Positions 28,838 to 62,080 of a DNA stretch of 64,000 nucleotides are shown piece after piece; within the stretch, counting starts at the first letter, position 1; every line of letters starts with the position of its first letter. The translations under genes were made by a program, and so were the position numbers. Origin of the DNA: Bacteroidales bacterium (lineage in GTDB: Bacteria > Bacteroidota > Bacteroidia > Bacteroidales > UBA6680); NCBI GenBank assembly GCA_025210735.1, contig JAOARD010000007.1, positions 62,001-126,000 on the forward strand, in the 5' to 3' direction. The notes beneath the pieces were generated by a model. It had not been told where the DNA came from. It did no database searches and was given only the letters and a program-made list of their open reading frames with translations.

Positions 28838-29329
28838 CTACTCCATTTCTTCGTACTCTTCAATAATCTTACGAACTTCATCAGGAGATACTCTACCATA
28901 AGTCTTCTCGCCTACCATTACAACTGGTGCAAGACCACATGCTCCAACACAACGCAGACAACTTATTGAGAATTTTCCATCTTCTGAAGTTTCTCCTACC
29001 TCAAGCTTAAGGATACGCTTAAACTCATCAAGAACTTTCTCTGCACCTCTAACATAACATGCAGTACCAGTACAGATAGAGATAGGATATCTTCCTTTAG
29101 GTTTCATTGTAAAGAACGAGTAGAACGTTACAACACCATAAACCTTAGCAACCGGTATATTAAGCTCTTCAGCAACAACCTCCTGTACCTCAGCTGGTAG
29201 ATACCCAAAGATACTTTGTGCTTTATGAAGAACGTTAATTAACTCTCCCGGATCGTTATTGAATGACTTACAAACCTCTTTTAAGGTTTCCAGGTCTTTC
29301 TTCTTTAATTCTATTTTATATCCAGACAT
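28838..29329 (-). CDS. hndA: NuoE-like subunit of Hnd-type [FeFe] hydrogenase
   Basis: A 163-residue NuoE-family [2Fe-2S] protein: helical N-terminus (SIFGYLPAEVQEVVAEELNI) and a thioredoxin-like domain with ligands CTGTAC (near residue 88) and CLRCVGAC (near 126). It is the last gene of the four-gene operon 33376-28838 and corresponds to HndA/HydC. Together with the NuoF-like subunit it forms the NAD(P)-linked diaphorase half of the hydrogenase. The terminator 19 nt after its stop closes the operon. Confidence 0.9.
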   Translation of the reverse strand: MSGYKIELKKKDLETLKEVCKSFNNDPGELINVLHKAQSIFGYLPAEVQEVVAEELNIPVAKVYGVVTFYSFFTMKPKGRYPISICTGTACYVRGAEKVLDEFKRILKLEVGETSEDGKFSISCLRCVGACGLAPVVMVGEKTYGRVSPDEVRKIIEEYEEME

Positions 29330-29366
29330 AATAATTTCTTTAAATCAAAAATTGAAATACACTTAA

Positions 29367-31148
29367 TTAATCCTCTTTAACACGAATCTCAGGCTTCTTA
29401 CTATCATAATGTGTATGAAGCAGATGATGTGCTTTATCACTCATAGGCTCACCTAAAAAGTTCTTATACAATTCTTGTATATGAGGATTTTCGTGAGATT
29501 TACGTATAGCTTTTCCTTTATCTTCGCGATAAAGAGCCTCTGCACGTTTCTTAAGGATTGTTGAATCGCCATGGTGTAATGGCTGACCACCACCACCAAT
29601 ACATCCACCAGGACATGCCATAATCTCAATTGCATGGAACTCAGACTTTCCTGATCTTATATCCTCAAGAAGTTTACGAGCATTACCAAGACCGTGAGCA
29701 ATACCAATATTCAATTTAAGACCATCAAAATCAACTTCAGCCTTACGGATACCTTCTAAACCACGTAGTTGTTCAAAGTCAACCTTCTCTAATGTTTTAC
29801 CAGTATGTACTTCGTAAGCAGTACGTGTTGCTGCCTCAATTACACCTCCTGTAACACCAAAGATAACTCCCGCACCAGTTGACTCTCCCATAGGAGAATC
29901 AAAATCTTCTTTAGGAAGAGTGTTGATATCCATGTTAGACTGTTTAATAAGGTGTGCTAACTCTCTTGTAGTTATCGCAAAGTCAACATCCGGATTTCCG
30001 TTTGTAGCAAACTCATCGCGCTCTGACTCATATTTCTTAGCAACACATGGCATTATAGAAACAACTACAAGATCTTCTCTCTTTACAGATATCTTATCAG
30101 CAAAGTATGTCTTAGCAATAGCTCCAAACATCTGCTGTGGAGAACGTGCTGTTGAAGGAATCTCTAACATATCAGGAAACTGTGCCTCAAAGAAGTTAAC
30201 CCAACCCGGACAACATGAAGTAAGTATTGGTAACTTAACCTCTTTATCACCAGCAAGGAACTTATTAAGACGTCCTAATAGCTCAGTACCTTCCTCCATA
30301 ATAGTAAGGTCAGCAGCAAAGTCAGTATCAAATACATAATCAAATCCTAATCTGCGTAGTGCAGCAGCCATCTGACCTGTAACAAGTGTTCCTGCTTCCA
30401 TACCAAACTCCTCACCAAGTGCAGCACGTACTGCAGGAGCAGTTTGTACAACAACTTTTTTGTTAGGGTCAGCAAGTGCACGAATAACGTTTGGTGTGTT
30501 ATCAACCTCAGTAAGCGCTCCTGTAGGACAAACTGCAACACACTGTCCGCAATATGTACAAGTAGACTTCTGAAGATCCATCTCAAATGCAGGAGCAACA
30601 ACAGCATCAAAACCTCTGTTTATTGCAAAAAGAGCTCCTACAGTCTGTACGTCGTTACACATAGTCTCACAACGACGACACATAACACACTTATCCATTT
30701 CGCGGATAATTGATGGAGAGTAATCTACTTTATAAGTAGACATCTCTGCATTATCCTGATATGGGATCTCTCTCACACCAAGCTTAACAGCCAAATCCTG
30801 AAGCTCACAATGTCCTGACTTAGCACATGTTAAACAATCTTTTGGGTGATCTGATAATATAAACTCAAGTACAGTTCTGCGGGCATTAATTACACGCATA
30901 CTGCTTGTTCTTACAACCATACCTTCATCTACATTTGTAGAACATGAAGGAGCAAGGTTACGACGTCCCTCTACTTCAACAACACAAATACGACAGCCAC
31001 CCGGCTTGTTCTCGATATTCATGTTATGAAGATCCATATAACATAAAACAGGGATATCTATACCTAATTTTTTTGCAGCCTTATAGATCGTAGTTCCTTT
31101 TTCTACTTCAACTTGTTGGCCATCTATCGTTAATTTTACTAAACTCAT
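29367..31148 (-). CDS. hndD: [FeFe] hydrogenase catalytic subunit, NAD(P)-linked (HndD/HydA type)
   Basis: A 593-residue [FeFe] hydrogenase. Order: an N-terminal plant-type [2Fe-2S] domain; a His-ligated [4Fe-4S] site (HPKDCLTCAKSGHC); a two-cluster ferredoxin domain (CVMCRRC, CTYCGQC); the H-cluster domain; and the C-terminal small-subunit-like tail (SHENPHIQELYKNFLGEP). All three H-cluster signatures are canonical: TSCCPGW (310-316), MPCVAKKYE (from 366, Cys368), and MACPGGC with Cys512 and Cys516. It reversibly makes or oxidises H2 with electrons from the NuoF/NuoE half, likely with ferredoxin, in the cytoplasm. Gene spacing of 18 bp to its upstream neighbour supports a single operon. Confidence 0.94.
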   Translation of the reverse strand: MSLVKLTIDGQQVEVEKGTTIYKAAKKLGIDIPVLCYMDLHNMNIENKPGGCRICVVEVEGRRNLAPSCSTNVDEGMVVRTSSMRVINARRTVLEFILSDHPKDCLTCAKSGHCELQDLAVKLGVREIPYQDNAEMSTYKVDYSPSIIREMDKCVMCRRCETMCNDVQTVGALFAINRGFDAVVAPAFEMDLQKSTCTYCGQCVAVCPTGALTEVDNTPNVIRALADPNKKVVVQTAPAVRAALGEEFGMEAGTLVTGQMAAALRRLGFDYVFDTDFAADLTIMEEGTELLGRLNKFLAGDKEVKLPILTSCCPGWVNFFEAQFPDMLEIPSTARSPQQMFGAIAKTYFADKISVKREDLVVVSIMPCVAKKYESERDEFATNGNPDVDFAITTRELAHLIKQSNMDINTLPKEDFDSPMGESTGAGVIFGVTGGVIEAATRTAYEVHTGKTLEKVDFEQLRGLEGIRKAEVDFDGLKLNIGIAHGLGNARKLLEDIRSGKSEFHAIEIMACPGGCIGGGGQPLHHGDSTILKKRAEALYREDKGKAIRKSHENPHIQELYKNFLGEPMSDKAHHLLHTHYDSKKPEIRVKED

Positions 31149-31166
31149 TCTTGATAACCCTCCAGA

Positions 31167-32960
31167 TTATTTAATGAAAATTGCGTTAAACTTACACTTC
31201 TCAATACAAGCACCACACTTAATACATGTAGTTGTATCGATAATATGAGGTTGCTTTCTCTCTCCCGAGATTGAACCTACAGGACATACTCGCGCACACG
31301 CTGTACAACCAACACAGTTCTCTGCTTCAATCACATACTGCATTAGATCTTTACACACCCCTGCTCTACACTTCTTGTCCTCTACGTGCTCTATATACTC
31401 GTCGTAGAAGTTCTTAATTGTAGATAGTACAGGGTTTGGAGAAGTCTGTCCAAGTCCACAAAGTGAAGTATCTTTAATCACTGTACACATATTCTGTAGC
31501 ATCTCAATATCTTCTTTAGTTCCATTTCCTAAAGAGATTTTATCAAGAGTCTCATACAGACGCTTGTTTCCGATTCTACATGGTGCACACTTACCACATG
31601 ATTCCTCAACAGTAAACTCAAGGTAGAATTTAGCAACAGAAACCATACAGTCGTCTTCATCCATTACAATCATACCACCTGATCCCATCATAGATCCAGC
31701 TGCAGTAAGAGTATCAAAGTCGATAGGAGTATCAAGGTGTTCTTCAGTTAAACATCCTCCTGAAGGACCTCCTGTCTGAACAGCCTTAAATTTCTTACCA
31801 TCTTTAATTCCACCACCAATTTCAAAAATAACCTCACGTAGGGTGATTCCCATAGGAACCTCAATAAGTCCTACGTTGTTAATCTTTCCTGCAAGAGCAA
31901 ATACTTTTGTACCCGTTGATTTCTCAGTACCAATCTTACTAAAGAATTCAGCTCCTTTGTTAATAATTACAGGAATATTAGCGTAAGTCTCAACGTTGTT
32001 TACGTTTGTTGGTTTTCCTTTGTAACCAGACTCAGCCGGGAATGGAGGTTTTACTGTAGGCTCACCACGCTCTCCCTCCATAGAGTGAATAAGCGAAGTC
32101 TCCTCACCACAAACAAATGCACCAGCACCATAACGAAGTTCAATATCAAAATCGAATCCAGAACCCATTATGTCTTTACCTAACATACCAAACTCTCTTG
32201 CCTGATCAATAGCAATCTTAAGACGCTCAATTGCAAGAGGGTACTCAGCACGAATATAGATAAGACCTACTGTTGCACCAATAGAGTATCCGCAAATAGC
32301 CATTGCCTCAAGAACTGAGTGTGGATCTCCCTCAAGGATAGAACGATCCATGAATGCTCCCGGATCTCCCTCATCGGCATTACAAACAACATATTTCTGA
32401 TCAGCATCGTTTTTGCTAGCAATCTCCCACTTTAATCCTGTTGGGAAACCTCCACCTCCACGACCGCGAAGACCAGATTTCTTTATTTCATCAATAACCT
32501 GAGCAGGTGTATACTCTGTTACACTCTTACCAAGTGCAGCGTAACCATCACGAGCAAAATACTCATGTATGTTCTCCGGATCAATAAATCCACAGTTACG
32601 TAAAGCTAAACGAATCTGCTTCTTATAGAATCCCATGTGTTTAGAGTCAGATACAATCTCCTCTTTCTTAGGATCTTTATAAAGCAAACGCTCTACTTTT
32701 CTACCCTTAATAATGTGCTCGTCAATAATCTCTTTTGTATCTTCAGGCGTTACCTGAGTATAGAAAGTGTTATCAGGCATGATTTTTACAATCGGACCTT
32801 TTTCACAAAATCCGAAACATCCTGTAGGAACAACTTGTACATCTTCTGAAAGTTGTTTCTCATCTAACTCTTTCTTTAAGTTCTCAACTATAGTATCGCT
32901 CGCAGAAGCTCTACAGCCGGTACCGGCACATACCAGCATATGCATTTTATATTTTGCCAT
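31167..32960 (-). CDS. hndC: NuoF-like flavoprotein subunit of Hnd-type hydrogenase
   Basis: A 597-residue long NuoF: N-terminal thioredoxin-like [2Fe-2S] domain (CAGTGC near residue 11, GCFGFC near 48), FMN/NADH domain (GLRGRGGGGFPTG, CNADEGDPGAF), [4Fe-4S] site ESCGKCAPC, and a C-terminal ferredoxin domain (CVGCTAC, CIKCGAC). This complete set is what electron-bifurcating HydB/HndC proteins carry, so the complex may couple NAD(P)H and ferredoxin to H2. It lies between the small HndB-like gene and the catalytic subunit. Confidence 0.93.
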   Translation of the reverse strand: MAKYKMHMLVCAGTGCRASASDTIVENLKKELDEKQLSEDVQVVPTGCFGFCEKGPIVKIMPDNTFYTQVTPEDTKEIIDEHIIKGRKVERLLYKDPKKEEIVSDSKHMGFYKKQIRLALRNCGFIDPENIHEYFARDGYAALGKSVTEYTPAQVIDEIKKSGLRGRGGGGFPTGLKWEIASKNDADQKYVVCNADEGDPGAFMDRSILEGDPHSVLEAMAICGYSIGATVGLIYIRAEYPLAIERLKIAIDQAREFGMLGKDIMGSGFDFDIELRYGAGAFVCGEETSLIHSMEGERGEPTVKPPFPAESGYKGKPTNVNNVETYANIPVIINKGAEFFSKIGTEKSTGTKVFALAGKINNVGLIEVPMGITLREVIFEIGGGIKDGKKFKAVQTGGPSGGCLTEEHLDTPIDFDTLTAAGSMMGSGGMIVMDEDDCMVSVAKFYLEFTVEESCGKCAPCRIGNKRLYETLDKISLGNGTKEDIEMLQNMCTVIKDTSLCGLGQTSPNPVLSTIKNFYDEYIEHVEDKKCRAGVCKDLMQYVIEAENCVGCTACARVCPVGSISGERKQPHIIDTTTCIKCGACIEKCKFNAIFIK

Positions 32961-32977
32961 CCGTAGGTTCCTCCTAA

Positions 32978-33376
32978 TTATTTATCGTCAATAGTTTCGT
33001 AATTCTGTGGGATAATACCATCTACAAGCTCACCATTCTTGATGTACTTCTCAATGATCTCATCTGCTTTTTTCACGTCAACATAACCAAATACTATTGG
33101 TTCCTGACCTGGTAGAATAACCTCAATAGTAGGCTCTGCATAACAGTAACCCATATCTCCGGTTTGAGAAACTACCGCCTCTACATTACGTTTTGGCAAC
33201 TCTTCTGCAAAATAGTTGAATACCTCTTTGGCACCTGATGCGATACCACTAGTAGCCATACCAACTTTTACTTGAACGAGGCTCTCAGGGTTATCTCCCT
33301 TTTCCCTCAAATCAATCTTAGACTTAAGCTCTCCAGAGAGCTTTTTTAAGTCAGCAAGCGATTTAATTTTCGACAT
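32978..33376 (-). CDS. hndB: HndB-like thioredoxin-fold protein, cluster ligands mostly lost
   Basis: A 132-residue protein of the HndB family (small thioredoxin-like [2Fe-2S] proteins encoded first in four-gene hydrogenase operons). The fold motifs are present: SGIASGAKEV and a MGYCYAEPTIEVILPG ending. However, the usual Cys before GIASGA reads Ser, and the GCxGxC pair reads GDMGYC, so only one cysteine remains in the whole protein. A [2Fe-2S] cluster is therefore unlikely unless shared. First gene of the operon, 45 nt after a TAnnTTTG box. Confidence 0.82.
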   Translation of the reverse strand: MSKIKSLADLKKLSGELKSKIDLREKGDNPESLVQVKVGMATSGIASGAKEVFNYFAEELPKRNVEAVVSQTGDMGYCYAEPTIEVILPGQEPIVFGYVDVKKADEIIEKYIKNGELVDGIIPQNYETIDDK

Positions 33377-33474: not shown

Positions 33475-34023
33475 TTATTTTATAATTTGTAATTCTTCTA
33501 AATTGGAGTTGATAAATTCTTTAAGATAAGCCACCACCTCTGGAGAACTAACAGGCACATCTCCAAGGGCTTCCTTTACCTCGCGCGAATCAAACACAAA
33601 CTGGTTATCTGATACGCTGTGCGAGTAGATAAATTCTACGTTTGGAGTACCACATACAAGCATTGATACAACCCCTGCTATATCCCCCATAACAGGTCTG
33701 TCTATGTTATCATGAATAAATCTCACAAGTACGTTTGTTCCTTTTCCCAGCTCCGATTCTATCTTCAGATAACCTCCTGCCTGTTCTGCATTTTGCTTAA
33801 AAAGTGATATCCCTAAACCTACCTTACGTGTTGTGCGTGTTGTATAAAACGGATTTATTACCTGCTTTACGGTCTCTTCAGACATTCCGCGCCCATTATC
33901 GCGAATCTCAATATCGTAGTTATTCTCACTTAAATCTTCGTTAACTATTACCTGAACCAGATTAGCTCCGGCTGATACTGAGTTATGAACAATATCCAAT
34001 ATGTGTAGTGACAACTCTTTCAT
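33475..34023 (-). CDS. Stand-alone HATPase protein of the hydrogenase-sensor cassette
   Basis: A 182-residue cytoplasmic protein. Residues about 1-110 are a GHKL ATPase domain with N box (HILDIVHNSVSAGA), G1 box (IRDNGRGMS) and G2 region (TRKVGLGISL), but there is no dimerisation/phospho-acceptor His domain and no sensor domain. Residues 110-182 form a short extra domain with no clear family. It resembles the ATPase-only kinases found next to [FeFe] hydrogenases in Clostridia and Thermotogae. It ends the six-gene cassette; its start is 3 nt after the PHP gene's stop, so translation is coupled. Confidence 0.78.
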   Translation of the reverse strand: MKELSLHILDIVHNSVSAGANLVQVIVNEDLSENNYDIEIRDNGRGMSEETVKQVINPFYTTRTTRKVGLGISLFKQNAEQAGGYLKIESELGKGTNVLVRFIHDNIDRPVMGDIAGVVSMLVCGTPNVEFIYSHSVSDNQFVFDSREVKEALGDVPVSSPEVVAYLKEFINSNLEELQIIK

Positions 34024-34026
34024 TCT

Positions 34027-34767
34027 CTATCTTACAATTACCTCTCTGCCTTCTTCTCCTCTTAGAGCTTTTGCAATTTCATCAAAGTCTGGTCTCTCAA
34101 TGCTAAACTCTGTATAAACATCACCTATATTTTCAAGATAATGCGAATCAGAACTTCTTACTATAGATTTCTCTGTCAGAATTTTATTATTATTTTTCAG
34201 TTCTTCAAGATCAGCAAATTTCGATACCCCTACAGCATCAAAACTCAAACCTTTTGGAAAAAACCCTAACTGGCTAATTATACTGTTTTTAGTTTTATCT
34301 ATATGTGCAGGAAAAAATATTCCGCCCAACTCCTTAACCTTATCTGCTACTTGTTCTACTGACTGATCAAGTGCTGAAAGTAATAACCTCTCCTCCTCAA
34401 AAACAATATCCTCTTTCCTGTCTACAGCTACCTGATATCCAAAATATTTAGGATCGTTCTTAATATCTGGCAAATGATCGTCAAGATAGTTCTGAAAAAG
34501 ACTAAGCTGTACATTACTTTTAAAGAATGCCAGACAGTGTACCTCTTCAGATGTAGTTACCTCTGCACCACACATAACAAACAGACCTTTTTCTGAAGCC
34601 AGTTCAGCAACAAGGTTACATTGTCTGGTGGTATTATGATCAGTTATGCCAATTATATCAAGTTTTCTCTCTTTTGCTCTGGCAACAATATTTGCAGGAG
34701 TCATATCAAGATCTCCACAGGGCGATAATAAAGTGTGTATATGCATATCTGCTCTGTAGAGTCTCAT
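34027..34767 (-). CDS. PHP-domain phosphoesterase-like protein
   Basis: A 246-residue PHP-superfamily protein. The metal-binding motifs are DMHIHT (7-12), ITDHNT (near residue 41), GAEVTTSEEVH, PAHID and SSDSHYLENIG. Related proteins cleave nucleoside or amino-acid phosphates (e.g. 3',5'-nucleoside bisphosphate) or histidinol phosphate; the substrate here is unknown. It sits between a DRTGG-domain gene (4-nt spacing) and the HATPase gene (3-nt spacing), a neighbourhood that recurs near sensory [FeFe] hydrogenases. It may make or remove a small signalling molecule. Confidence 0.78.
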   Translation of the reverse strand: MRLYRADMHIHTLLSPCGDLDMTPANIVARAKERKLDIIGITDHNTTRQCNLVAELASEKGLFVMCGAEVTTSEEVHCLAFFKSNVQLSLFQNYLDDHLPDIKNDPKYFGYQVAVDRKEDIVFEEERLLLSALDQSVEQVADKVKELGGIFFPAHIDKTKNSIISQLGFFPKGLSFDAVGVSKFADLEELKNNNKILTEKSIVRSSDSHYLENIGDVYTEFSIERPDFDEIAKALRGEEGREVIVR

Positions 34768-34771
34768 TTTT

Positions 34772-35107
34772 TTAGCAATTTAACAGGTTATATATTTGCC
34801 CGGCTATATTGTAGGTTGGTAAGCTAGTACCAAGTACCGGAATACCCTCCTCTTCGCAATGCTCAATTGTGTCCTGATCTGGTTTATGGTTATTAACCAA
34901 AACAACTGCTGACAACTCTTTAAGCGAAGCTATAGCTGCAACATTCTTATGAGTTTGTAATGTTATCCATACCTCACCAGATTTACTGTTCCCCATAACA
35001 TCACTCAACAGGTCAGAAACATATCCTCCCGTTATCTCGTTTTCCAGTCCTTTCTCGCCTGAATAAACGATTAAATCCAACTCATTAACTAAATCGACAA
35101 CTTTCAT
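34772..35107 (-). CDS. DRTGG-domain protein (copy 1)
   Basis: A 111-residue protein made of one DRTGG domain, the fold found in the N-terminus of some phosphotransacetylases and near HPr kinase. The pattern ITGGYVSDLLSDVM followed by WITLQTHKN and VVLVNNHKPD fits the family. It is thought to bind a small ligand or act as a protein-interaction domain. It is paralogous to the DRTGG gene at 37016-37360. Its 5' leader is almost identical to that of serA (see 35108-35203), which suggests separate control inside the cassette. Confidence 0.75.
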   Translation of the reverse strand: MKVVDLVNELDLIVYSGEKGLENEITGGYVSDLLSDVMGNSKSGEVWITLQTHKNVAAIASLKELSAVVLVNNHKPDQDTIEHCEEEGIPVLGTSLPTYNIAGQIYNLLNC

Positions 35108-35203
35108 ATGTCTAAATTTGTTTTTTAAAGGTCATATGGAACTCCGCATTATAATCATCCTCGTGTGTGTGAAAATTCCTTCTCATGCTTCGTTTCATCT
35201 GTT
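35108..35203 (-). promoter_or_regulatory. Conserved leader element, copy A
   Basis: About 95 nt directly before the DRTGG start. It shares, by eye, roughly three quarters of its bases (with small indels) with the serA leader at 49989-50085: ACAGATGAAAC at the start, GAGTTCCAT in the middle, and ACAAATT.AGACATATGAAA across the start codon of the downstream gene. It also encloses an 87-nt reading frame (35112-35198, start at 35198, MKRSMRRN and onward) that ends 4 nt before the DRTGG ATG. The indels relative to copy B break that frame there, so an RNA- or DNA-level function is favoured. Confidence 0.55.
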
Positions 35204-35208
35204 ATTAT

Positions 35209-36567
35209 TTATTTAGGATCTTTATTCAATCTGTTACGCCCCCATATTCTCTCTATTATCCTTATTGCATGTTCAGGACTTAACCTGTGATGCTTCTCCA
35301 TAACCCTCTGCATAAATACACAGTGCGATAGTGTTGCATTCTTTTGTGCAATATCTTCAGCCAAAGCTTTACATGTAGGGGCTCCACATGCTCCGCAATC
35401 AAATCCGGGTAAGAAACTAAGCAGCTTTCTCGATTTTTTCATCTTATCAAGTGCTACCCCCAGATCCTGATCTAAAATAATAGATCGTGCTTTTATCTCT
35501 TTTAGATGATTTACCCCAAGTATATCATCTTTATGTTTCGCCATATCAGCTAAACGTTCCTCTGCCAACGATGAGTCTGCTTTTTCTATACGCTCAGCTC
35601 TTTTTCTTAATCGTTCAATTGTTAAAAAGCGATTTCCGGAAACAAGTATTCCTCCGGCACAGCTCTCATCGCAAGCTCTAAGCTCCAGAAAATCTATTGT
35701 CTCCTCTTCATCGTTCTCAACCATCTCCAGAAACTCAATAACATTTGTTATCCCGTCAACAGCAAGGCTTCTGCCATTCATATAAGGAGCTTCTCCATTT
35801 GTAAGACTCCACAATATACTTTTTGATGATAGTTTGCCCATATCTGATGATATTGCTTCATCAACCTTTTGGTTTGATATGGTACGGTATATACGATCGT
35901 AGATGAAGTTCATGTTTATAACCCCATCTATCTTTGACTCATCCTCTCCTTCAGGACTTTTTACAGCTGCAATTTTTGCGGCACAAGGTGTTACATAAAA
36001 AATCCCAATCTCAGACTCCTTAAATCCCTCCTCCTGTAATTTCTTTTTATAATATACTGCTGTAATATCTGATGGTGGGTTTATGAGAACAAGGTTCTCT
36101 AATAATGAAGGAAAACGTACCTGAATAAGCCTTACTATAGCAGGACAGAATGTTGAAATTAATGGTCCTGATTCCGGTTTAGCTGTATACTCATTATACG
36201 CTTCTGCAACTATATCTACCCCTTGCTCAACTTCAACAACATGGGTAAATCCAAGCTCATACAGTACATTATATATCTGCGATGTTTTTACCTTCTCAGG
36301 AAATTGCCCGATAAGTACTGATGGAACAAGAGCAACACGTGCTTTATATTTAAAAATCGATGCTAAATCGTCATGCTCTACATATATTGCCGAAACAGGA
36401 CAAACCCTGTAGCAATCACCACAATCAACACATCTGTTGCTATTTATATCAGCAGTACCATTCCACACACGAATAGCCTCTGTAGGGCAAACCCTCATAC
36501 AGTGCGAACATCCTATACAAACATCTGCATGAACCTTTAACGCGTGATGAAAATGCTGCTTCTCCAT
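35209..36567 (-). CDS. Sensory-type [FeFe] hydrogenase homologue (HydS-like)
   Basis: A 452-residue protein: N-terminal two-cluster ferredoxin domain (CIGCSHC near residue 18, CVDCGDC near 47), an H-cluster-like domain (about 80-340), and a C-terminal Fe-S domain with Cys391, Cys394, Cys399 and Cys416 (CGACGAPTC type). The cubane ligands are kept: Cys141, Cys195, Cys299, Cys303. The L1 motif reads STFCPAIV, with Phe140 where catalytic enzymes have the proton-relay Cys. The other two are TPCAAK and ACDESCAGG. Such sequences belong to sensory [FeFe] hydrogenases (group C type). It probably reads H2 or redox state and signals through the neighbouring HATPase/DRTGG/PHP proteins. Confidence 0.85.
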   Translation of the reverse strand: MEKQHFHHALKVHADVCIGCSHCMRVCPTEAIRVWNGTADINSNRCVDCGDCYRVCPVSAIYVEHDDLASIFKYKARVALVPSVLIGQFPEKVKTSQIYNVLYELGFTHVVEVEQGVDIVAEAYNEYTAKPESGPLISTFCPAIVRLIQVRFPSLLENLVLINPPSDITAVYYKKKLQEEGFKESEIGIFYVTPCAAKIAAVKSPEGEDESKIDGVINMNFIYDRIYRTISNQKVDEAISSDMGKLSSKSILWSLTNGEAPYMNGRSLAVDGITNVIEFLEMVENDEEETIDFLELRACDESCAGGILVSGNRFLTIERLRKRAERIEKADSSLAEERLADMAKHKDDILGVNHLKEIKARSIILDQDLGVALDKMKKSRKLLSFLPGFDCGACGAPTCKALAEDIAQKNATLSHCVFMQRVMEKHHRLSPEHAIRIIERIWGRNRLNKDPK

Positions 36568-36572
36568 AAAAT

Positions 36573-36983
36573 CTATAAATTAACAATAATCTCTACTTCG
36601 GTGCCCACTCCCACTGTCGATTTAATATTCAGCTCATCAACATTCTTTTTTATGTTTGGCAATCCCATACCAGCACCAAAACCCATCTCTCTGACTTTTT
36701 GTGATGCTGTTGAGTATCCTACCTCCATAGCTCTGTCGATATCAGGAATACCAGGACCTTCATCCTTTAACAGAATATTTATACGTCCTGTATCAATATC
36801 AACTGTAATGTTACCTTTATATGCATGAGCCACAATATTAACCTCTGCCTCATAAAGCGCAACAACTATCCTTTTAATTATTTTCTGATCTATATTTAGA
36901 GCTTTAAGGTTTTTCTTTACCTGACTCGATGCCTTACCTGCATTAGAAAAATCTCCGCCCTCAACCTTATAGTCAAACTTCAT
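36573..36983 (-). CDS. Anti-sigma-factor-like HATPase (RsbT/SpoIIAB type)
   Basis: A 136-residue single-domain GHKL ATPase of the anti-sigma regulatory kinase type. N box ALYEAEVNIVAHAY, G1 box DEGPGIPDI and G2 box GFGAGMGLPNI are intact. I chose the ATG at 36983 (MKFDYKVEGG); an upstream TTG adds two residues only. The stop is 5 nt before the HydS-like gene, so the two are co-translated. In Clostridia similar ATPases sit with hydrogenase-like sensors, and an RsbT-type partner switch is plausible. No STAS-domain antagonist is seen in the window. Confidence 0.8.
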   Translation of the reverse strand: MKFDYKVEGGDFSNAGKASSQVKKNLKALNIDQKIIKRIVVALYEAEVNIVAHAYKGNITVDIDTGRINILLKDEGPGIPDIDRAMEVGYSTASQKVREMGFGAGMGLPNIKKNVDELNIKSTVGVGTEVEIIVNL

Positions 36984-37015
36984 ATTCAATTCTTTCTCAC
37001 AAAACCAATCTGTTA

Positions 37016-37360
37016 TTAGTAGATAGGTTTTAATCCGTTTTTATACAATTCACCAATAGCTCTGAACATTGATAACGGCGATTCCAACACAACCATCCCG
37101 TTATCAGATGCAAGTTCAAGCATCTCTGGCGTTACTCTTTTATTTCTGACAAATAGTATATACTTTATATCAGACATCTCAGCAGTTCTTATACTCTGAA
37201 GATTTGTTAATCCTGTAATAAGAACAAGATCGTCAGTCTCAATCGTAAGAACATCACTCATCAAGTCAGAGGCAAAACCAAATTCCACCTCTTCATTAAG
37301 GCTCTCCTCTCCCACACAAACCTTGGCGGTTACGCACTCTACGATATCCTTAATTTTCAT
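37016..37360 (-). CDS. DRTGG-domain protein (copy 2)
   Basis: A 114-residue DRTGG-domain protein, paralogous to the one at 34772-35107 (same length, EFGFASDLMSDVL versus TGGYVSDLLSDVM). It is the first gene of the sensory cassette, downstream of the terminator of the three-gene hydrogenase operon. The ligand is unknown. Two DRTGG proteins in one cassette suggest they form a hetero-oligomer or sense separate signals. Confidence 0.75.
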   Translation of the reverse strand: MKIKDIVECVTAKVCVGEESLNEEVEFGFASDLMSDVLTIETDDLVLITGLTNLQSIRTAEMSDIKYILFVRNKRVTPEMLELASDNGMVVLESPLSMFRAIGELYKNGLKPIY

Positions 37361-37532
37361 CTGTCTTTTATATTATCTAATGTATAAATATCACACAAAC
37401 GTATCACAATACAAAGCATACTGCTAATAAAGTGTCCTAAAACTATGCAAATATAGTAATTTCTGTTATTCAATTAACACTGTTATCAGCATAACAAATA
37501 CAGAAACATGTTAATATAGAATGAATCTACAC

Positions 37533-37560
37533 AAAAAAGGGAGCCTGCAACCAGACTCCC
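37533..37560 (-). terminator. Rho-independent terminator of the three-gene hydrogenase operon
   Basis: On the minus strand, stem GGGAGTCTG / CAGGCTCCC (37539-37547 with 37552-37560, one mismatch) is followed by a T run (A run 37533-37538 on the plus strand). Confidence 0.85.
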
Positions 37561-37582: not shown

Positions 37583-39370
37583 TTAGTACCTATTACGTTT
37601 TCTATAGTGAGTATGCAATAGTTCGTGTGATTTATGCCCCAGAGGCTCTTTTAAGTAATCATTATACAAGGTTATTATCTCTGGATTTTCATGAGACTTT
37701 CTCAATGGCATTCCCATATCCTCATCGTAGATAGCTTTTGTACGTTTACGTCTGATCTCAGCATTAGTTGGTATAGGCTGACCACCTCCACCAATACATC
37801 CACCAGGACATGCCATAATCTCAATAAAGTGGTATGGTGATTCTCCCTTGGCTATCTGATCCATTATCTTTCTTGCATTTATCAGACCATGCGCTACAGC
37901 AACTCGTAACTCAACTCCCTCTAAGAAATCCCATTCAGGTAAACATCCGTTTATTCTTATAGATGCCTCTTTTATACCCTCTTCTCCTCTTACAGCTGTA
38001 ATATTCAGGTTCTCAAACGGAACATCTCTGCCAGTAATAACCTCATAAGCTGTACGCAACGCTGCCTCCATAACTCCACCAGTAGCACCAAAAATAACTC
38101 CGGCTCCTGTTGACTCACCCATTATACTGTCGTATTTAGATTCGTCAAGATCAAGGAAGTTCAAACCAGCTTGCTTTATCATATGCCCTAACTCACGTGT
38201 TGTAAGGCCAGCATCAACGTCTCTGTAGTTACTACTGTTCATCTCAGCTCTGTTTGCCTCATATTTTTTAGCCGCACAAGGCATTATTGCAACAGATACA
38301 ATATTTTCAGGGTTAACACCTGTTTTATCTGCATAATATGTCTTTGCTAATGCCCCAAACATCTGTTGTGGCGATTTACATGTAGACAAGTGTCCTAAAT
38401 GATCAGGATACATATGCTCTATAAATTTAACCCAACCCGGCGAACAAGATGTGATCATAGGTAAATCAACAGTTGTATCGCCCTCTTTTACAACTTTTTT
38501 AAGACGAGATAGCAACTCATTACCCTCTTCAACAATAGTTAAGTCTGCAGAGAAGTCTGTATCAAGAACTGAGTCTATACCCATCTTTTTCATTGCAGTA
38601 ACCATCTTTCCGGTAACACGTGTTCCAACAGGATAACCTAACATCTCTCCCAATCCTACACGTACAGAAGGTGCTGTATTCATAACAACATGTTTCTCCG
38701 GGTCACCAATAGCATCCCATATCTCATTATAGTATCTGCGTTCTGTAAGAGCTCCTGTAGGACAGCGGTTAACACACTGACCACAATTAACACATACAAC
38801 CTCATTTAATGGCAGGTCAAGGAACGTTGATATCTTCATATCTTTTCCTTTATGTGCAACACTTATAGCATTTACTCCTTGTAATTCAGCACATGTACGT
38901 ACGCAACGTTGACATCTAATACATTTCTTATCGTCCTTCTCAATAGACCATGAAGATTTGTCAACCTCCAGATCATCTTTCAGCACACTTAAAAACATAT
39001 CGTTATCAACATTATACTCAGCAGCTAATGTTTGTAACTCACAGTTTGTACTTCTGTAACATGTTGTACACTGTGTACTATGCTCCGATACTAACAGAGA
39101 GATTATATCTCTGCGTGAACGTCTTACCATTGCACTGTTTGTTCTCACAACCATACCATCTTGTGCAGGATAAGCACATGATGCCTGAAGGTTACGCATT
39201 CCTTCAACCTCAACAACACATACTCTACAGTTTCCGGCTACACAAAGATCTTCATGATGGCAAAGCGTAGGGATCTTAACATTTACTTTTTTAGCAGCAT
39301 CAAGAATAGATTGCCCTTCATCAACAGCAACCTTAATTCCATCTATCGTAAGATTTATCTTATTATTCAT
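37583..39370 (-). CDS. hydA: [FeFe] hydrogenase catalytic subunit of HydABC type, with altered L1 motif
   Basis: A 595-residue [FeFe] hydrogenase with the same domain order as the other copy: N-terminal [2Fe-2S]; a [4Fe-4S] site (STQCTTCYRSTNCEL); two ferredoxin clusters (CIRCQRC, CVNCGQC); H-cluster domain; C-terminal tail. L2 is MPCAAKKYE and L3 MACPGGCIGGGGQP, but L1 reads TSCSPGW (307-313): Ser310 stands where the cubane-ligating second Cys of TSCCPGW is expected. I recall this variant in other trimeric hydrogenases, so it may be a family trait. The rest looks fully functional. It lies downstream of its NuoF and NuoE partners. Confidence 0.9.
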   Translation of the reverse strand: MNNKINLTIDGIKVAVDEGQSILDAAKKVNVKIPTLCHHEDLCVAGNCRVCVVEVEGMRNLQASCAYPAQDGMVVRTNSAMVRRSRRDIISLLVSEHSTQCTTCYRSTNCELQTLAAEYNVDNDMFLSVLKDDLEVDKSSWSIEKDDKKCIRCQRCVRTCAELQGVNAISVAHKGKDMKISTFLDLPLNEVVCVNCGQCVNRCPTGALTERRYYNEIWDAIGDPEKHVVMNTAPSVRVGLGEMLGYPVGTRVTGKMVTAMKKMGIDSVLDTDFSADLTIVEEGNELLSRLKKVVKEGDTTVDLPMITSCSPGWVKFIEHMYPDHLGHLSTCKSPQQMFGALAKTYYADKTGVNPENIVSVAIMPCAAKKYEANRAEMNSSNYRDVDAGLTTRELGHMIKQAGLNFLDLDESKYDSIMGESTGAGVIFGATGGVMEAALRTAYEVITGRDVPFENLNITAVRGEEGIKEASIRINGCLPEWDFLEGVELRVAVAHGLINARKIMDQIAKGESPYHFIEIMACPGGCIGGGGQPIPTNAEIRRKRTKAIYDEDMGMPLRKSHENPEIITLYNDYLKEPLGHKSHELLHTHYRKRNRY

Positions 39371-39387
39371 TTCTGTTAATTTTTAGA

Positions 39388-40551
39388 TTAATAGATCATC
39401 TCCTCACGGAAATTATTTACTATTGATGAAAACGAGTTTGCAACAGATTGTCCTAAACCACATTTTGATGTTATCTTCATTGTTTCTGACAATTGCAGCA
39501 ATGTCTCAAGATATTCTGAACTCTTTTCACCACTCTTAACGGCTTTTATTCCTTTAAGTAGTTGCTGACAACCAACTCTGCATGGCGTACACTGTCCGCA
39601 AGACTCCTCTTCAAAGAAATCAAGATAGTTAAACAATACATTATACATTGATCTTGAACTATTAAAGATCATCATTGATCCTCCTGTAGGAACACCTTCA
39701 AAACCAATTACAGTATCCTTAAATTTCTTTCTAGGAACACAGAATCCTGATGCCCCACCTACCTGTACAGATTTTGTATCACCATCGCCAAACTCTTCAA
39801 CAAAATCTTCAAGTGACATACCAAGCTCTAACTCATATATTCCGGGTATTGGTGTATCTCCTGATATCGAAAATACTTTAGATCCTCTTGAATCTTTTGT
39901 ACCTAACTCCTTAAACTGTTTTGGTCCTACATGGCATATCATATAAGCATAAACCAATGTTTCAACATTATTAATTACAGTTGGCTTACTCATATAACCA
40001 GATACAGTAGGGTAAGGAGGTTTATTTCTTGGCTCTCCTCTTTTTCCTTCCATACTCTGGAATAGCGCAGATTCCTCTCCACATATATATGCTCCACTAC
40101 CCATAAATATCTCTATTCTGAATTCCACACCAAGATCATCAAGAATTTTATGGAACTCTACCAACTCTTTTTCAAGTTGATCTTTAAGATAAAGGTACTC
40201 ACCACGTAGGTATAAGAAACCTTGTTTTGCACCAATAACTCGTCCAACAACTGCCATACCGCCAAATACCTTCTGTGGCACTCTTGATAGTATCTCTCTA
40301 TCTTTGAATGTACCAGGTTCTCCTTCGTCGGCATTACAAATAATGAATTTTTCAGGCTCTTCCTGTTCAGCTGTGAACTTCCACTTAAGTCCTGTAGGAA
40401 AACCGGCACCACCTCTTCCTTTCAGTCCCGATTCTAATATATCGTTTACTATATCTTTATTCTCTTTGGCAAAAGTCTTTTTCAATACCTCCTGAGGATC
40501 ACTTTTCTTACTGAATATTAGATCAACTCGTTTCAAATTATTATCTGACAT
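39388..40551 (-). CDS. hydB: Short NuoF-like subunit of HydABC-type hydrogenase
   Basis: A 387-residue NuoF-like flavoprotein with FMN/NADH motifs GLKGRGGAGFPTG and CNADEGEPGTF, and the [4Fe-4S] site ESCGQCTPC. Unlike the other two NuoF copies in the window it has neither the N-terminal thioredoxin-like domain nor the C-terminal two-cluster ferredoxin domain. The frame is open further upstream, but the ATG at 40551 (MSDNNLKRV) avoids overlap with the NuoE gene and gives the normal short-NuoF start. It probably passes electrons between NAD(H) and the hydrogenase. Missing the extra Fe-S domains, it may not bifurcate in the HydB way. Confidence 0.88.
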   Translation of the reverse strand: MSDNNLKRVDLIFSKKSDPQEVLKKTFAKENKDIVNDILESGLKGRGGAGFPTGLKWKFTAEQEEPEKFIICNADEGEPGTFKDREILSRVPQKVFGGMAVVGRVIGAKQGFLYLRGEYLYLKDQLEKELVEFHKILDDLGVEFRIEIFMGSGAYICGEESALFQSMEGKRGEPRNKPPYPTVSGYMSKPTVINNVETLVYAYMICHVGPKQFKELGTKDSRGSKVFSISGDTPIPGIYELELGMSLEDFVEEFGDGDTKSVQVGGASGFCVPRKKFKDTVIGFEGVPTGGSMMIFNSSRSMYNVLFNYLDFFEEESCGQCTPCRVGCQQLLKGIKAVKSGEKSSEYLETLLQLSETMKITSKCGLGQSVANSFSSIVNNFREEMIY

Positions 40552-40573
40552 AAGATTAATTTTAAGGTTTTTA

Positions 40574-41041
40574 CTACTGTTTTCTGATATATTCTGCCAA
40601 TATCTCGCGTGCTTTGTCCGGAGTAAGCTCTGTGTAAGGGGTATCATTTATAAGCATCACAGGTCCTTTATGACACCATCCCAGGCAGTTTGTGCTTAAA
40701 AGTGAGAACTTCTTATCTTGTGTTGTCTCACCTAATTTAATCTTAAGGGTATCCTCAATAGCTTTTACTATTGGTTTCTTACCTTTCATATCGCAGGTAA
40801 TAGTTTTACATATCCTGATAACATATTTTCCTCTTGGTACTGTATCAAGGAAAGAGTAGAATGATGCTGTTCCAAATACATCTGCTGATGAAATATCAAG
40901 TTGCCTTGCTACCTCTACCATAGCTTCATCTGAAAGATAGCGCTCCTTAGCTACCACACCTTGTAATATAGGAAGCAGACTTTCTCGTTGTCTCCCATAC
41001 TTATCGGCAAGTTCATTAATAAGATTTTTAAGTTCTAACAT
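40574..41041 (-). CDS. hydC: NuoE-like subunit of HydABC-type hydrogenase
   Basis: A 155-residue NuoE-family [2Fe-2S] protein. The ligands are CKTITC (near residue 88) and NCLGWCHKGP (near 122). It is the first gene of the three-gene NuoE-NuoF-HydA operon. The NuoF start lies 22 nt after its stop. It is the third NuoE paralogue of the window and the most divergent around the Fe-S site (KTIT instead of TGTA/HGTA). Confidence 0.9.
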   Translation of the reverse strand: MLELKNLINELADKYGRQRESLLPILQGVVAKERYLSDEAMVEVARQLDISSADVFGTASFYSFLDTVPRGKYVIRICKTITCDMKGKKPIVKAIEDTLKIKLGETTQDKKFSLLSTNCLGWCHKGPVMLINDTPYTELTPDKAREILAEYIRKQ

Positions 41042-41170
41042 AGTTTCGGTTTTAATTGTTATTTAATTAACACTGTTAGTTTTGTTCTCAGATTTTACCT
41101 CTATATATCTGATTTACATTATCAAATTACTGAATAGCACTTTCTATTACTATGATATTTTCATGCTTTT

Positions 41171-41248: not shown

Positions 41249-41273
41249 ATAAGGCTTATACTAAAAGTGTTAT

Positions 41274-43427
41274 CTATTTAACAATTTCCATCTCCTCTAT
41301 AAGATGTTTAGCTCCGGCAAACTTATCTATTATAAATAGAGCATAGCGTATATCAAGTGTAATATTCCTGCACTGCGTAGGATCATACATAATATCGCTC
41401 ATAGTACCTTCCCAACATCTGTCAAAGTTTACTCCTATAAGATGCCCTTCTGAGTTAAATACCGGACTACCTGAATTACCTCCAGAAGTATGATTTGTTG
41501 CAACAAATGCAACCGGAACTGTACCTTTATTTGCGTACTGACCATAATCTTTATTCTTAAACAGGTCTTTTAATTTATCCGGCACATCATAGTCATAAAT
41601 TTCAGGATTGTCTTTTGCTATAATTCCATCAAGTGTTGAGTAGTACTCATACTCAATAGCATCTTTTGGCGAGTATCCTTTTATTTTTCCGTATGCAACA
41701 CGCATTGTAAAGTTTGCATCAGGGAACAGAGTCTTATCAGACTGCATCTTCATAAGACCTCGCATATATTTTCTGTATAATTTATCCAGTGATGCATCAA
41801 GTGTTTTATAATCAGTTTTTACTTTATCTGAATGTACAAGATTAAAATCTATATATACATTATATATAGGGTCGTTTTTAATCTCGTCAAACTTACCTTC
41901 AGCTAATGATGCCATTATTCTATCCATCTTACCTTTGTTGACAAAAATAGATTTACTGTATAGAATCTTCGAAAATTCCATAAAGTCTCCGTTATACTTT
42001 GTATCAACTGTTTTAAAGAACTCTGGATAGAATTCCGGTGCAAGATCGTTCTTGTATGCTTTCATCATCTCTACAAATACAAGCTGATCTATTGGCAGGT
42101 AATAATCTTTAAAGTAACTCTTAACTTTATCATTTAGCTTTTCAGCCTTCTCTTTTTTCTCTTTATCTGAATATGTATCATACTTAAGAACATAGTCGTT
42201 AAATCTGCCTGCAAGACCTACTGCCTCTGAAGCCATTGCAGCCTCTCTGTAATAATCGTATGCTAAAGAGAGATTATGTATTTTACTATACTGCTCTTTG
42301 AATCCGTCAAGAACATTTCCGTACTCAGTTTTTAGCTGAGAGTTTGTATTAAACCAGTTCTTAAATCTGTGTTCCTGTTTTTCCTTAACATTAACAGCAT
42401 CTAATCTGTTAAGACCTCTTATAATACCTTTCCACTTTTTCCATGCATTAGCAACACGTGCATATTTTGATGAATACTGGATTCTTACTTTATCGCTCTT
42501 ATCCATCTCATCTCTCATAATGTCAAGTCGTGTTGTTCTCAGAGCAATTTTATGAGGCAGAAGTGTGTTTATCATAAAATCAACGTCCTTTGAGTAAAGA
42601 TACTCCTCTGTACTTCCTGGATATCCCATTACAAATGTAAAATCATCTTCCTGAATACCTTTTAACGATATTTTAAATGATTTCTTTGGTACATAAGGAA
42701 CATTATCAGGCGAGTATGCAGCTGGTTTATTATCCTTATCTGCATATATTCTGAACAGACTAAAATCTCCGGTATGGCGTGGCCACATCCAGTTATCTGT
42801 ATCGCCACCAAACTTACCTATTGACGAAGGTGGTGCTCCAACAAGTCTTACATCTGTAAACTCTTCGTAAACAAAAAGGTAATAGTCGTTACCATAATAC
42901 AGAGGTTTAACTACAGCTATATACTCATTACCTTTAGTAGCTTTTGCAACAATACGTTTCTTATTCTTAGCAATAACCTTCTGTCTCTGCTCTTCAGTAG
43001 CATTGCTCTTAACTCCTTTAAGAACCTGCTTTGTTACATCGTCAATACGTACCAGAAACTTTACAGATAAACCCGGTGTAGGTAACTCCTCTTTTCTGTT
43101 CATTGCCCAATATCCGTTTGTAAGATAATCGTGCTCAACAGATGAGTGATACTGTATTGCTCCATATCCGCAATGGTGATTAGTCATTATAAGTCCCTCT
43201 TTACTTATAAGTTCGCCAGTACACCCACGACCAAATATCACAATTCCGTCTTTCATACTTGCCTGATTGATATTGTAAATATCATCTGCAGAAAGCTTAA
43301 GACCTTTTTGCTGCATGTCTTTTATGTTGAGTTTTCCTAATAACGACGGAAGCCACATTCCCTCATCTGCCATTATTGTTGTAATCATTGAGATACTCAA
43401 CAAAATTGTAATTACAGTTTTTCTCAT
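41274..43427 (-). CDS. S46 dipeptidyl-peptidase, DPP11-like (Asp/Glu-specific)
   Basis: A 717-residue exported serine exopeptidase of family S46, found mainly in Bacteroidota that ferment peptides. Signal peptide MRKTVITILLSISMITTIMA. The catalytic His lies in TNHHCGY (82-88) and the Ser in GGNSGSP (Ser652). Arg670 in GVNFDRCWEG matches the Arg (673 in the Porphyromonas enzyme) that gives DPP11 its preference for Asp/Glu at P1; DPP7 has Gly there. The residue match is by eye. It releases dipeptides in the periplasm. Last gene of a five-gene unit. Confidence 0.85.
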   Translation of the reverse strand: MRKTVITILLSISMITTIMADEGMWLPSLLGKLNIKDMQQKGLKLSADDIYNINQASMKDGIVIFGRGCTGELISKEGLIMTNHHCGYGAIQYHSSVEHDYLTNGYWAMNRKEELPTPGLSVKFLVRIDDVTKQVLKGVKSNATEEQRQKVIAKNKKRIVAKATKGNEYIAVVKPLYYGNDYYLFVYEEFTDVRLVGAPPSSIGKFGGDTDNWMWPRHTGDFSLFRIYADKDNKPAAYSPDNVPYVPKKSFKISLKGIQEDDFTFVMGYPGSTEEYLYSKDVDFMINTLLPHKIALRTTRLDIMRDEMDKSDKVRIQYSSKYARVANAWKKWKGIIRGLNRLDAVNVKEKQEHRFKNWFNTNSQLKTEYGNVLDGFKEQYSKIHNLSLAYDYYREAAMASEAVGLAGRFNDYVLKYDTYSDKEKKEKAEKLNDKVKSYFKDYYLPIDQLVFVEMMKAYKNDLAPEFYPEFFKTVDTKYNGDFMEFSKILYSKSIFVNKGKMDRIMASLAEGKFDEIKNDPIYNVYIDFNLVHSDKVKTDYKTLDASLDKLYRKYMRGLMKMQSDKTLFPDANFTMRVAYGKIKGYSPKDAIEYEYYSTLDGIIAKDNPEIYDYDVPDKLKDLFKNKDYGQYANKGTVPVAFVATNHTSGGNSGSPVFNSEGHLIGVNFDRCWEGTMSDIMYDPTQCRNITLDIRYALFIIDKFAGAKHLIEEMEIVK

Positions 43428-61597: not shown

Positions 61598-62080
61598 ATG
61601 ATAAACCGATATATTATGAGTAGACCATGCCCTTTCTGTAGTGCTGTAGATAATGATTTATGGTTTTGTGAATCCGAAAATTTTGTTGCTATATATAATA
61701 TTGCACCTATATTGCCGGGGCACTCTATGATAATACCCAAAAACCACTACAGCAATGTACTTGATATGGATAACGATAAGCTTGCTGAGATGATGGTATT
61801 TAGCAGAGAGGTTATAGATATTCTTACAATTGCCTTTAAAGCTGAATCATTTAACTGGACAATACAGGATGGCGAACCAGCAGGACAAACTGTTGATCAT
61901 GTTCATATGCATATTATACCACGAACAGAAGACGATCTGTCCGATCCCAGCGACTGGTATCCTATTTTACAGAAAAGCACAACAGAGAATATTGACAGTT
62001 CATTAAGAGCAAAATTTAATAATCAGGAGTATCAGAACATAACCAATCATCTTAAAGCTATTGGGAAAAGAAAATCTTAG
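61598..62080 (+). CDS. HIT-family nucleotide hydrolase/transferase
   Basis: A histidine-triad protein of about 160 residues (from the ATG at 61598; the ATG at 61616, MSRPCPFC, is an equally good start). The N-terminal CPFC zinc knuckle, the ILPGHSMIIPKNHYSN loop and the triad DHVHMHIIPR (HxHxH) define the family. It probably hydrolyses dinucleotide polyphosphates or adenosine phosphoramidate-type compounds. Monocistronic. Confidence 0.88.
   Translation: MINRYIMSRPCPFCSAVDNDLWFCESENFVAIYNIAPILPGHSMIIPKNHYSNVLDMDNDKLAEMMVFSREVIDILTIAFKAESFNWTIQDGEPAGQTVDHVHMHIIPRTEDDLSDPSDWYPILQKSTTENIDSSLRAKFNNQEYQNITNHLKAIGKRKS

Follow-up and report, generated by a model that had tools for sequence, protein, structure and literature searches.

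The 64,000-nucleotide stretch analysed here (hereafter the window; contig JAOARD010000007.1 of a Bacteroidales bacterium, positions 62,001 to 126,000) raises the question of what a cassette of six genes, set between two hydrogenase operons, does for the enzymes that it accompanies. Our favoured answer, which is tentative and somewhat short of probable, is that the six genes form a co-transcribed signalling unit in which Rex sets transcription and a kinase/phosphatase redox switch acts at the protein level on HydBC-type enzymes. The cassette would probably monitor hydrogen or electron pressure with a sensor built on iron-sulfur clusters and a pair of switch proteins driven by ATP. This reading is based on gene content and order, co-occurrence, active-site residues, a natural fusion of two of the proteins (D1 and RsbT), the division into two modules, and Rex-like boxes.

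The preliminary description had reported six genes running in one direction at 33475-37360, and all six minus-strand open reading frames were recovered there, with their domains assigned by Pfam. In the order of transcription they are:

37016..37360, minus strand: D1, the first cassette gene, a DRTGG-domain protein of 114 amino acids (open reading frame and Pfam)
36573..36989, minus strand: RsbT/SpoIIAB-like serine-kinase-type ATPase (Pfam HATPase_c_2)
35209..36567, minus strand: HydS, a putative sensory [FeFe] hydrogenase of group D type, 452 amino acids, no PAS domain (Pfam and alignment)
34772..35107, minus strand: D2, the second DRTGG-domain protein, 111 amino acids (Pfam)
34027..34767, minus strand: PHP-domain phosphoesterase, 246 amino acids, with conserved metal-ligand residues (Pfam and alignment)
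33475..34023, minus strand: GHKL ATPase without a HisKA domain, 182 amino acids (Pfam and alignment)

The DRTGG match of D2 (8e-7) was above the curated Pfam cut-off, and that of D1 (4e-5) slightly below it; the D1 motifs FASDLMSDVL and LITGL were conserved in an alignment of 59 sequences. The AlphaFold model of D1 was poor (predicted local distance difference test score, pLDDT, 46) and that of D2 weak (pLDDT 60), with HPr kinase and DRTGG structures as the eight best matches of D2, each non-significant. The RsbT-like ATPase matched HATPase_c_2 at 3e-12 and TIGR01925 below the cut-off. It has 138 amino acids when started at TTG and 136 at the ATG favoured by close homologues. Its residues E47 and N51, both invariant among homologues, align with E46 and N50 in SpoIIAB structures, which we take to be the catalytic base and a Mg ligand, respectively. 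The sequence is therefore consistent with a Bergerat-fold ATPase that has the catalytic Glu and the Mg-binding Asn. The phosphoesterase matched PHP and PHP_C, and its relatives by profile included nucleoside bisphosphate phosphatase and RNase models, both below cut-off. The last gene gave only HATPase_c-type matches, and Pfam found no HisKA dimerisation/phosphoacceptor domain in it; nor did the Pfam scan find a STAS domain in any cassette protein. No RNA element was found with Rfam.

Whole-genome searches of 295 Bacteroidales genomes placed HydS in 84, the PHP gene in 86 and both in 81 (Fisher p = 3e-62). HydA was present in 83 of the 84 HydS genomes vs 100 of the 211 without HydS (p = 3e-20); these p values treat genomes as independent and so overstate significance. 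An earlier scan of the contigs of close relatives with a single HydS sequence had given two loci. The cassette block was retained in 60 neighbourhoods, in which D1-RsbT-HydS was almost always contiguous and D2-PHP-HATPase usually came next. With 81 genomes holding both HydS and PHP, and the set present in another order as well, the neighbourhood check across Bacteroidota that the preliminary description had proposed was passed strongly. Its remark that the set is known in part outside this phylum also held, as a nearly identical block was found in Bacillota (Subdoligranulum, L105), where the GHKL ATPase gene lies within a HydC-HydB-HydA operon. We found no description of the six-gene set in the open-access literature searched (papers beyond open access may differ), which agrees with the view that its signal path is undescribed. 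Two oddities were seen among the relatives. One close relative has an extra open reading frame of 257 amino acids with a signal-like start between D2 and PHP (L010:11766-12536), and a Parabacteroides distasonis sequence filed as a plasmid (L108, NZ_OY725779.1) carries gyrA and the full cassette and is probably chromosomal.

The cassette is flanked by the following features:

37583..41041, minus strand: upstream hydrogenase operon HydC2, HydB2, HydA2 (open reading frames with Pfam/profile matches)
37539..37560, minus strand: terminator-like hairpin in the gap that separates the cassette from the upstream hydrogenase operon (by position; such sites are not enriched overall)
28838..33376, minus strand: downstream hydrogenase operon, probably co-transcribed with the cassette
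32978-33376, minus strand: [2Fe-2S] ferredoxin-like gene of the downstream operon
31167-32960, minus strand: HydB of the downstream operon
29367-31148, minus strand: HydA of the downstream operon
28838-29329, minus strand: HydC of the downstream operon

The median junctions within the cassette were 5, 3, 2, 2 and -4 nucleotides, and the distance from HydA2 to D1 was never below 155 nucleotides. These tight junctions, the wide gap and the hairpin in the window together indicate that the cassette is its own transcription unit. Transcription probably runs on into the downstream hydrogenase genes. The median gap to them is 81 nucleotides, and the 98-bp (base pair) gap in the window holds no Rex-like box with ≤1 mismatch and no terminator-like hairpin on the same strand. 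Both HydA proteins exceeded the cut-off of the NCBIfam model NF040763 for NADH-dependent [FeFe] hydrogenase (867.6 and 908.6 bits vs 765), and each flanking set comprises HydA, HydB and HydC, as predicted for the NAD-dependent bifurcating HydABC enzyme. The reported position between two NAD(P)-linked hydrogenases was thus borne out. HydA2 (37583-39370) reads TSCSPGW, with Ser at an H-cluster cysteine position, vs TSCCPGW in HydA; both forms are common among relatives (23 vs 27). In total, the window's genome contains eight [FeFe]-hydrogenase-type proteins (contigs C23, C24 and C73).

The cassette consists of two separable three-gene modules, D1-RsbT-HydS and D2-PHP-HATPase, which in some genomes stand apart with both retained (L137 to L143 vs L059, L080, L082, L092, L093 and L142). 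In two genomes (L097, L098), D1 and RsbT are fused into one protein, which is the best evidence that they act as a unit. The preliminary description took the repeated DRTGG and ATPase genes as a hint of two parallel branches. The modules and the DRTGG genes, which are paralogues, lend that idea some support, but the two ATPases belong to different subfamilies, one SpoIIAB/RsbT-like and the other histidine-kinase-type, and so are not a simple duplication.

HydS combines Fe_hyd_lg_C with two N-terminal 4Fe-4S sites and a C-terminal iron-sulfur domain, and has no PAS match in Pfam. When HydS is aligned with HydA from the window, Phe140 takes the place of the proton-relay Cys; this position is Phe in 57 and Tyr in 4 of 61 sequences, which supports the earlier view of a sensory-type enzyme without its proton relay. 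In the same 61 sequences, the H-cluster cysteines C141, C195, C299 and C303 were invariant, as was the C-terminal Cx2Cx4Cx16C motif (C391, C394, C399, C416). This layout, with two N-terminal 4Fe-4S sites, the H-domain, Cx2Cx4Cx16C and no PAS domain, matches that of group D (PMC8163306). We therefore assign HydS, by domain layout, as a putative sensory [FeFe] hydrogenase of group-D-like (M2e) type. HydG is present in the window's genome, so an H-cluster is possible in HydS.

Two kinds of genome suggest that hydrogen may not be what the cassette senses in every case. Four genomes (G427, G539, G483, G542) keep the cassette order but have no HydS between RsbT and D2, so that D1, RsbT, D2, PHP and the ATPase gene remain; three of these loci continue with ferredoxin-HydB-HydA-HydC, and in G427 the contig breaks off behind the ATPase gene. 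Almost no sequence remains at the HydS position in L136 and L132, and whole-genome searches found no HydS elsewhere in the four genomes. In two of the three families to which these genomes belong, sister genomes do have HydS.

The second kind belongs to another Bacteroidota order, with HydS in 14 of 98 genomes. Its operon, where fully readable, runs HdrC-HdrB-(FAD protein)-cassette-HydC-ferredoxin-HydB-HdrA-MvhD-[NiFe] small-[NiFe] large. HydS was the only Fe_hyd_lg_C protein in all 14 HydS genomes of this [NiFe]-linked order; HydG was found in none of the 11 genomes searched, and HydF above cut-off in none of the three tested. Since HydG was not found and HydS is the sole [FeFe]-type protein, HydS of this order is probably without a complete H-cluster. 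Cys20 of an N-terminal cluster was also replaced in 12 of 12 sequences compared. A TamHydS mutant named C20A, changed at what is possibly the corresponding position, could not receive its active site (PMC13104023). G180, not listed in this order, has a similar operon and a second [FeFe] protein, and HydG was not found in it. We must also note that equating an absent HydG with a missing H-cluster was weakened by a control. The near-complete genomes of family f3 (G348, G597 and G679; L099 and L118-L121) hold HydA, a second [FeFe] protein and HydS, yet profile searches found neither HydG nor HydF, meaning that absence in such a search is not proof of missing maturation.

In 11 loci of other lineages, the cassette is accompanied by [NiFe] VhuA/VhuG-like proteins with HdrA/MvhD, and in L097/L098 by a NuoG-like subunit. 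The enzyme that recurs across the hydrogenase-linked settings is HydB/HydC, with [FeFe] HydA as the catalytic partner in Bacteroidales. The cassette may serve HydBC-type bifurcating enzymes in general as a redox switch, in which HydS need not sense H2, would carry only iron-sulfur clusters in the [NiFe]-linked order, and could be dispensed with by the five-gene set; we regard this wider role as possible but on the doubtful side. The proposal that HydS is an indispensable H2 sensor sits poorly with both kinds of genome. A few kb upstream of its [NiFe]-linked cassette, G338 (L101:1044-3537) encodes a SpoIIE phosphatase, a STAS protein and a protein that weakly matches RsbT.

The transcriptional layer was approached through Rex-like boxes, defined as the palindrome TTGTKAW-N4-WTMACAA and counted at ≤1 mismatch. 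The window contains:

37480..37497: Rex-like box CTGTTATCAGCATAACAA upstream of D1, one mismatch
37463..37480: second Rex-like box, two mismatches, 17 bp from the first (predicted tandem operator)
41056..41073: Rex-like box just upstream of HydC2, one mismatch
41267..41284: Rex-like box 226 nucleotides upstream of HydC2, one mismatch, overlapping the end of the preceding gene

The three boxes with ≤1 mismatch in the window (37480, 41056 and 41267) all lie 5' of the cassette or HydC2, with 0.1 expected for the stricter pattern. Among relatives, boxes occurred upstream of D1 in 32 of 79 regions (0.5 expected), upstream of HydC2 in 14 of 18 (0 expected) and upstream of the ferredoxin gene in 5 of 32 (0.05 expected), with almost none in other gene classes; some sites fully match a relaxed Rex-type pattern. 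The tandem 17-bp spacing upstream of D1 recurred in 21 cases. A further ~0.72 Mb of the genome gave 11 boxes vs 7.7 expected, so the Rex-like box is not common in it. Two of the 11 were perfect, one of them 5' of hydG and a preceding gene of 82 amino acids that we take to be TM1266-like (L155:6475-8396, G000:C74). Upstream of D1, neither CRP/FNR-type nor FNR-type boxes showed the enrichment seen for the Rex-type box, and sigma-70-type promoter scans stayed at chance level. Three relatives carry rex here: in L066 and L136 the gene separates HydA2 from D1, and in L091 it sits beside the locus. In Caldicellulosiruptor, binding assays showed that Rex binds upstream of the [FeFe] hydrogenase and hydG, which supports their repression by Rex (PMC6391272). 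The conserved boxes, the rex genes at the locus and the Caldicellulosiruptor binding together make Rex the likely transcription factor. It is most likely Rex, responding to NADH/NAD+, that sets transcription of the cassette and likewise of the HydG operon and the hydrogenase genes upstream; we infer its binding from the boxes. With transcription explained by Rex, the cassette itself most plausibly acts on proteins. The tests put forward in the preliminary description presuppose instead that the cassette governs transcript levels of both operons. The block encodes neither a protein that binds DNA nor a sigma factor or STAS partner through which it could do so, and the Rex-like boxes are the simpler link.

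The following account of which proteins interact, what is phosphorylated and which way the response runs is our inference. Rex, reading NADH/NAD+, would repress or set transcription of the cassette, the upstream hydrogenase and the HydG operon. H2, a low-potential carrier or both would supply electrons to the iron-sulfur clusters of HydS, and HydS would change shape. This change may be relayed to the D1-RsbT unit, the serine-kinase-type ATPase being carried by its DRTGG domain, and RsbT would then phosphorylate or reversibly bind a partner, either D2 or a HydBC-type subunit. The PHP phosphoesterase, D2 and the second ATPase might reverse or gate the state of the partner. As the outcome, the activity of the HydBC enzyme would be tuned to redox load, with HydS as one input.

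Several observations weigh against this scheme. A rex gene was not seen in the window and the ~0.72 Mb read of the 5.6-Mb genome, and 47 of the 79 D1 promoters have no box at ≤1 mismatch. Within the cassette, the RsbT-like kinase has no STAS or sigma partner. Several cassettes of relatives, including that of Parabacteroides distasonis, have no hydrogenase within ~10 kb, so the target may be elsewhere.

Among the other explanations, the best surviving one, which we nevertheless consider unlikely, is a classical H2 sensor, in which the H-cluster of HydS senses H2 and RsbT-like partner switching with unlinked sigma/STAS proteins switches transcription of both hydrogenase operons. Group C and D enzymes have been proposed as H2 sensors (PMC8163306, PMC13104023), HydG was over the cut-off in 70 of the 81 Bacteroidales HydS genomes searched, and a SpoIIE-type phosphatase in the group C-like operons of Ruminococcus albus and Monoglobus fits the logic of a phospho-switch. 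However, this account must supply its DNA-binding or sigma-binding partner from outside the block, the Rex-like boxes already account for shared transcription, and neither the four cassettes without HydS nor the order that retains HydS without HydG or another [FeFe] enzyme is expected from it. A small-molecule branch appears improbable. The ligand of the DRTGG domains would be a nucleotide signal, as in CBS-DRTGG pyrophosphatases; PHP would hydrolyse it and the ATPases would respond to it, with HydS again as one input only. The DRTGG/HPr-kinase-like match of D2, the profile relatives of PHP and the persistence of the five-gene set without HydS agree with such a branch, but the block contains no nucleotide synthase and the D2 model is of low confidence. 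Equally improbable is a role in assembly or quality control, with the GHKL ATPases, DRTGG proteins and PHP enzyme assembling or repairing HydBC complexes and HydS as an electron-transfer helper: the cassette does accompany HydBC-type complexes whatever their catalytic subunit, and its ATPase gene does lie inside the Subdoligranulum operon, but ~100 HydA-positive genomes are without HydS, and most of them also without the PHP gene, so that HydABC is evidently built without the cassette and HydS as its assembly factor is disfavoured.

The favoured reading, Rex at the promoter and a redox switch on proteins, bears on the question posed in the TamHydS papers, namely the signal output of group D (PMC8163306, PMC13104023), for which the cassette supplies a fixed set of partners. 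The pieces added here are the kinase-DRTGG fusion, genomes lacking the sensor, genomes in which its H2-binding centre is probably missing, and Rex as a predicted layer of control above these. How Bacteroidales control H2 also matters for fermentation in the gut and in biogas production.

Of the systems already described, TamHydS (group D/M2e, Thermoanaerobacter mathranii) resembles HydS in its two N-terminal 4Fe-4S sites, the missing relay Cys, Cx2Cx4Cx16C and the lack of a PAS domain (PMC8163306, PMC13104023), as well as in its linkage to an ATPase gene and a bifurcating hydrogenase (PMC8163306); it differs at the relay position, which is Phe140 in the Bacteroidales protein. TmHydS (group C, Thermotoga maritima; PMC10055695) shares the sensory-type H-domain and a C-terminal 4Fe-4S site, whereas its PAS domain has no counterpart in the Bacteroidales HydS. 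The group C-like operons of Ruminococcus and Monoglobus have in common with the cassette a phospho-signalling gene, which there encodes a SpoIIE-type phosphatase and here, instead, a SpoIIAB/RsbT-type kinase and a PHP enzyme. The phosphatase gene comes next after the HydS-type proteins in R. albus plasmid pRUMAL01 (L107) and in Monoglobus (L109), and rex and adhE lie just upstream of the R. albus locus. In Clostridium thermocellum, phosphatases, kinases or PAS sensors are encoded upstream of bifurcating hydrogenases (PMC3492117). The RsbT-like ATPase shares with SpoIIAB, RsbW and RsbT kinases the HATPase_c_2 fold and, at equivalent positions, the catalytic Glu and Asn, but its cassette has no STAS substrate or sigma factor, and it is linked, and sometimes fused, to a DRTGG domain. 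Like the Rex regulon described for Clostridia, for instance in Caldicellulosiruptor bescii (PMC6391272), the Bacteroidales genes have Rex-type palindromes 5' of a bifurcating hydrogenase and of hydG, which in the window's genome is preceded by a TM1266-like gene. The Bacteroidales arrangement differs from that regulon in its host, in the tandem boxes at 17 bp, and in that the sensory cassette itself belongs to the predicted regulon.

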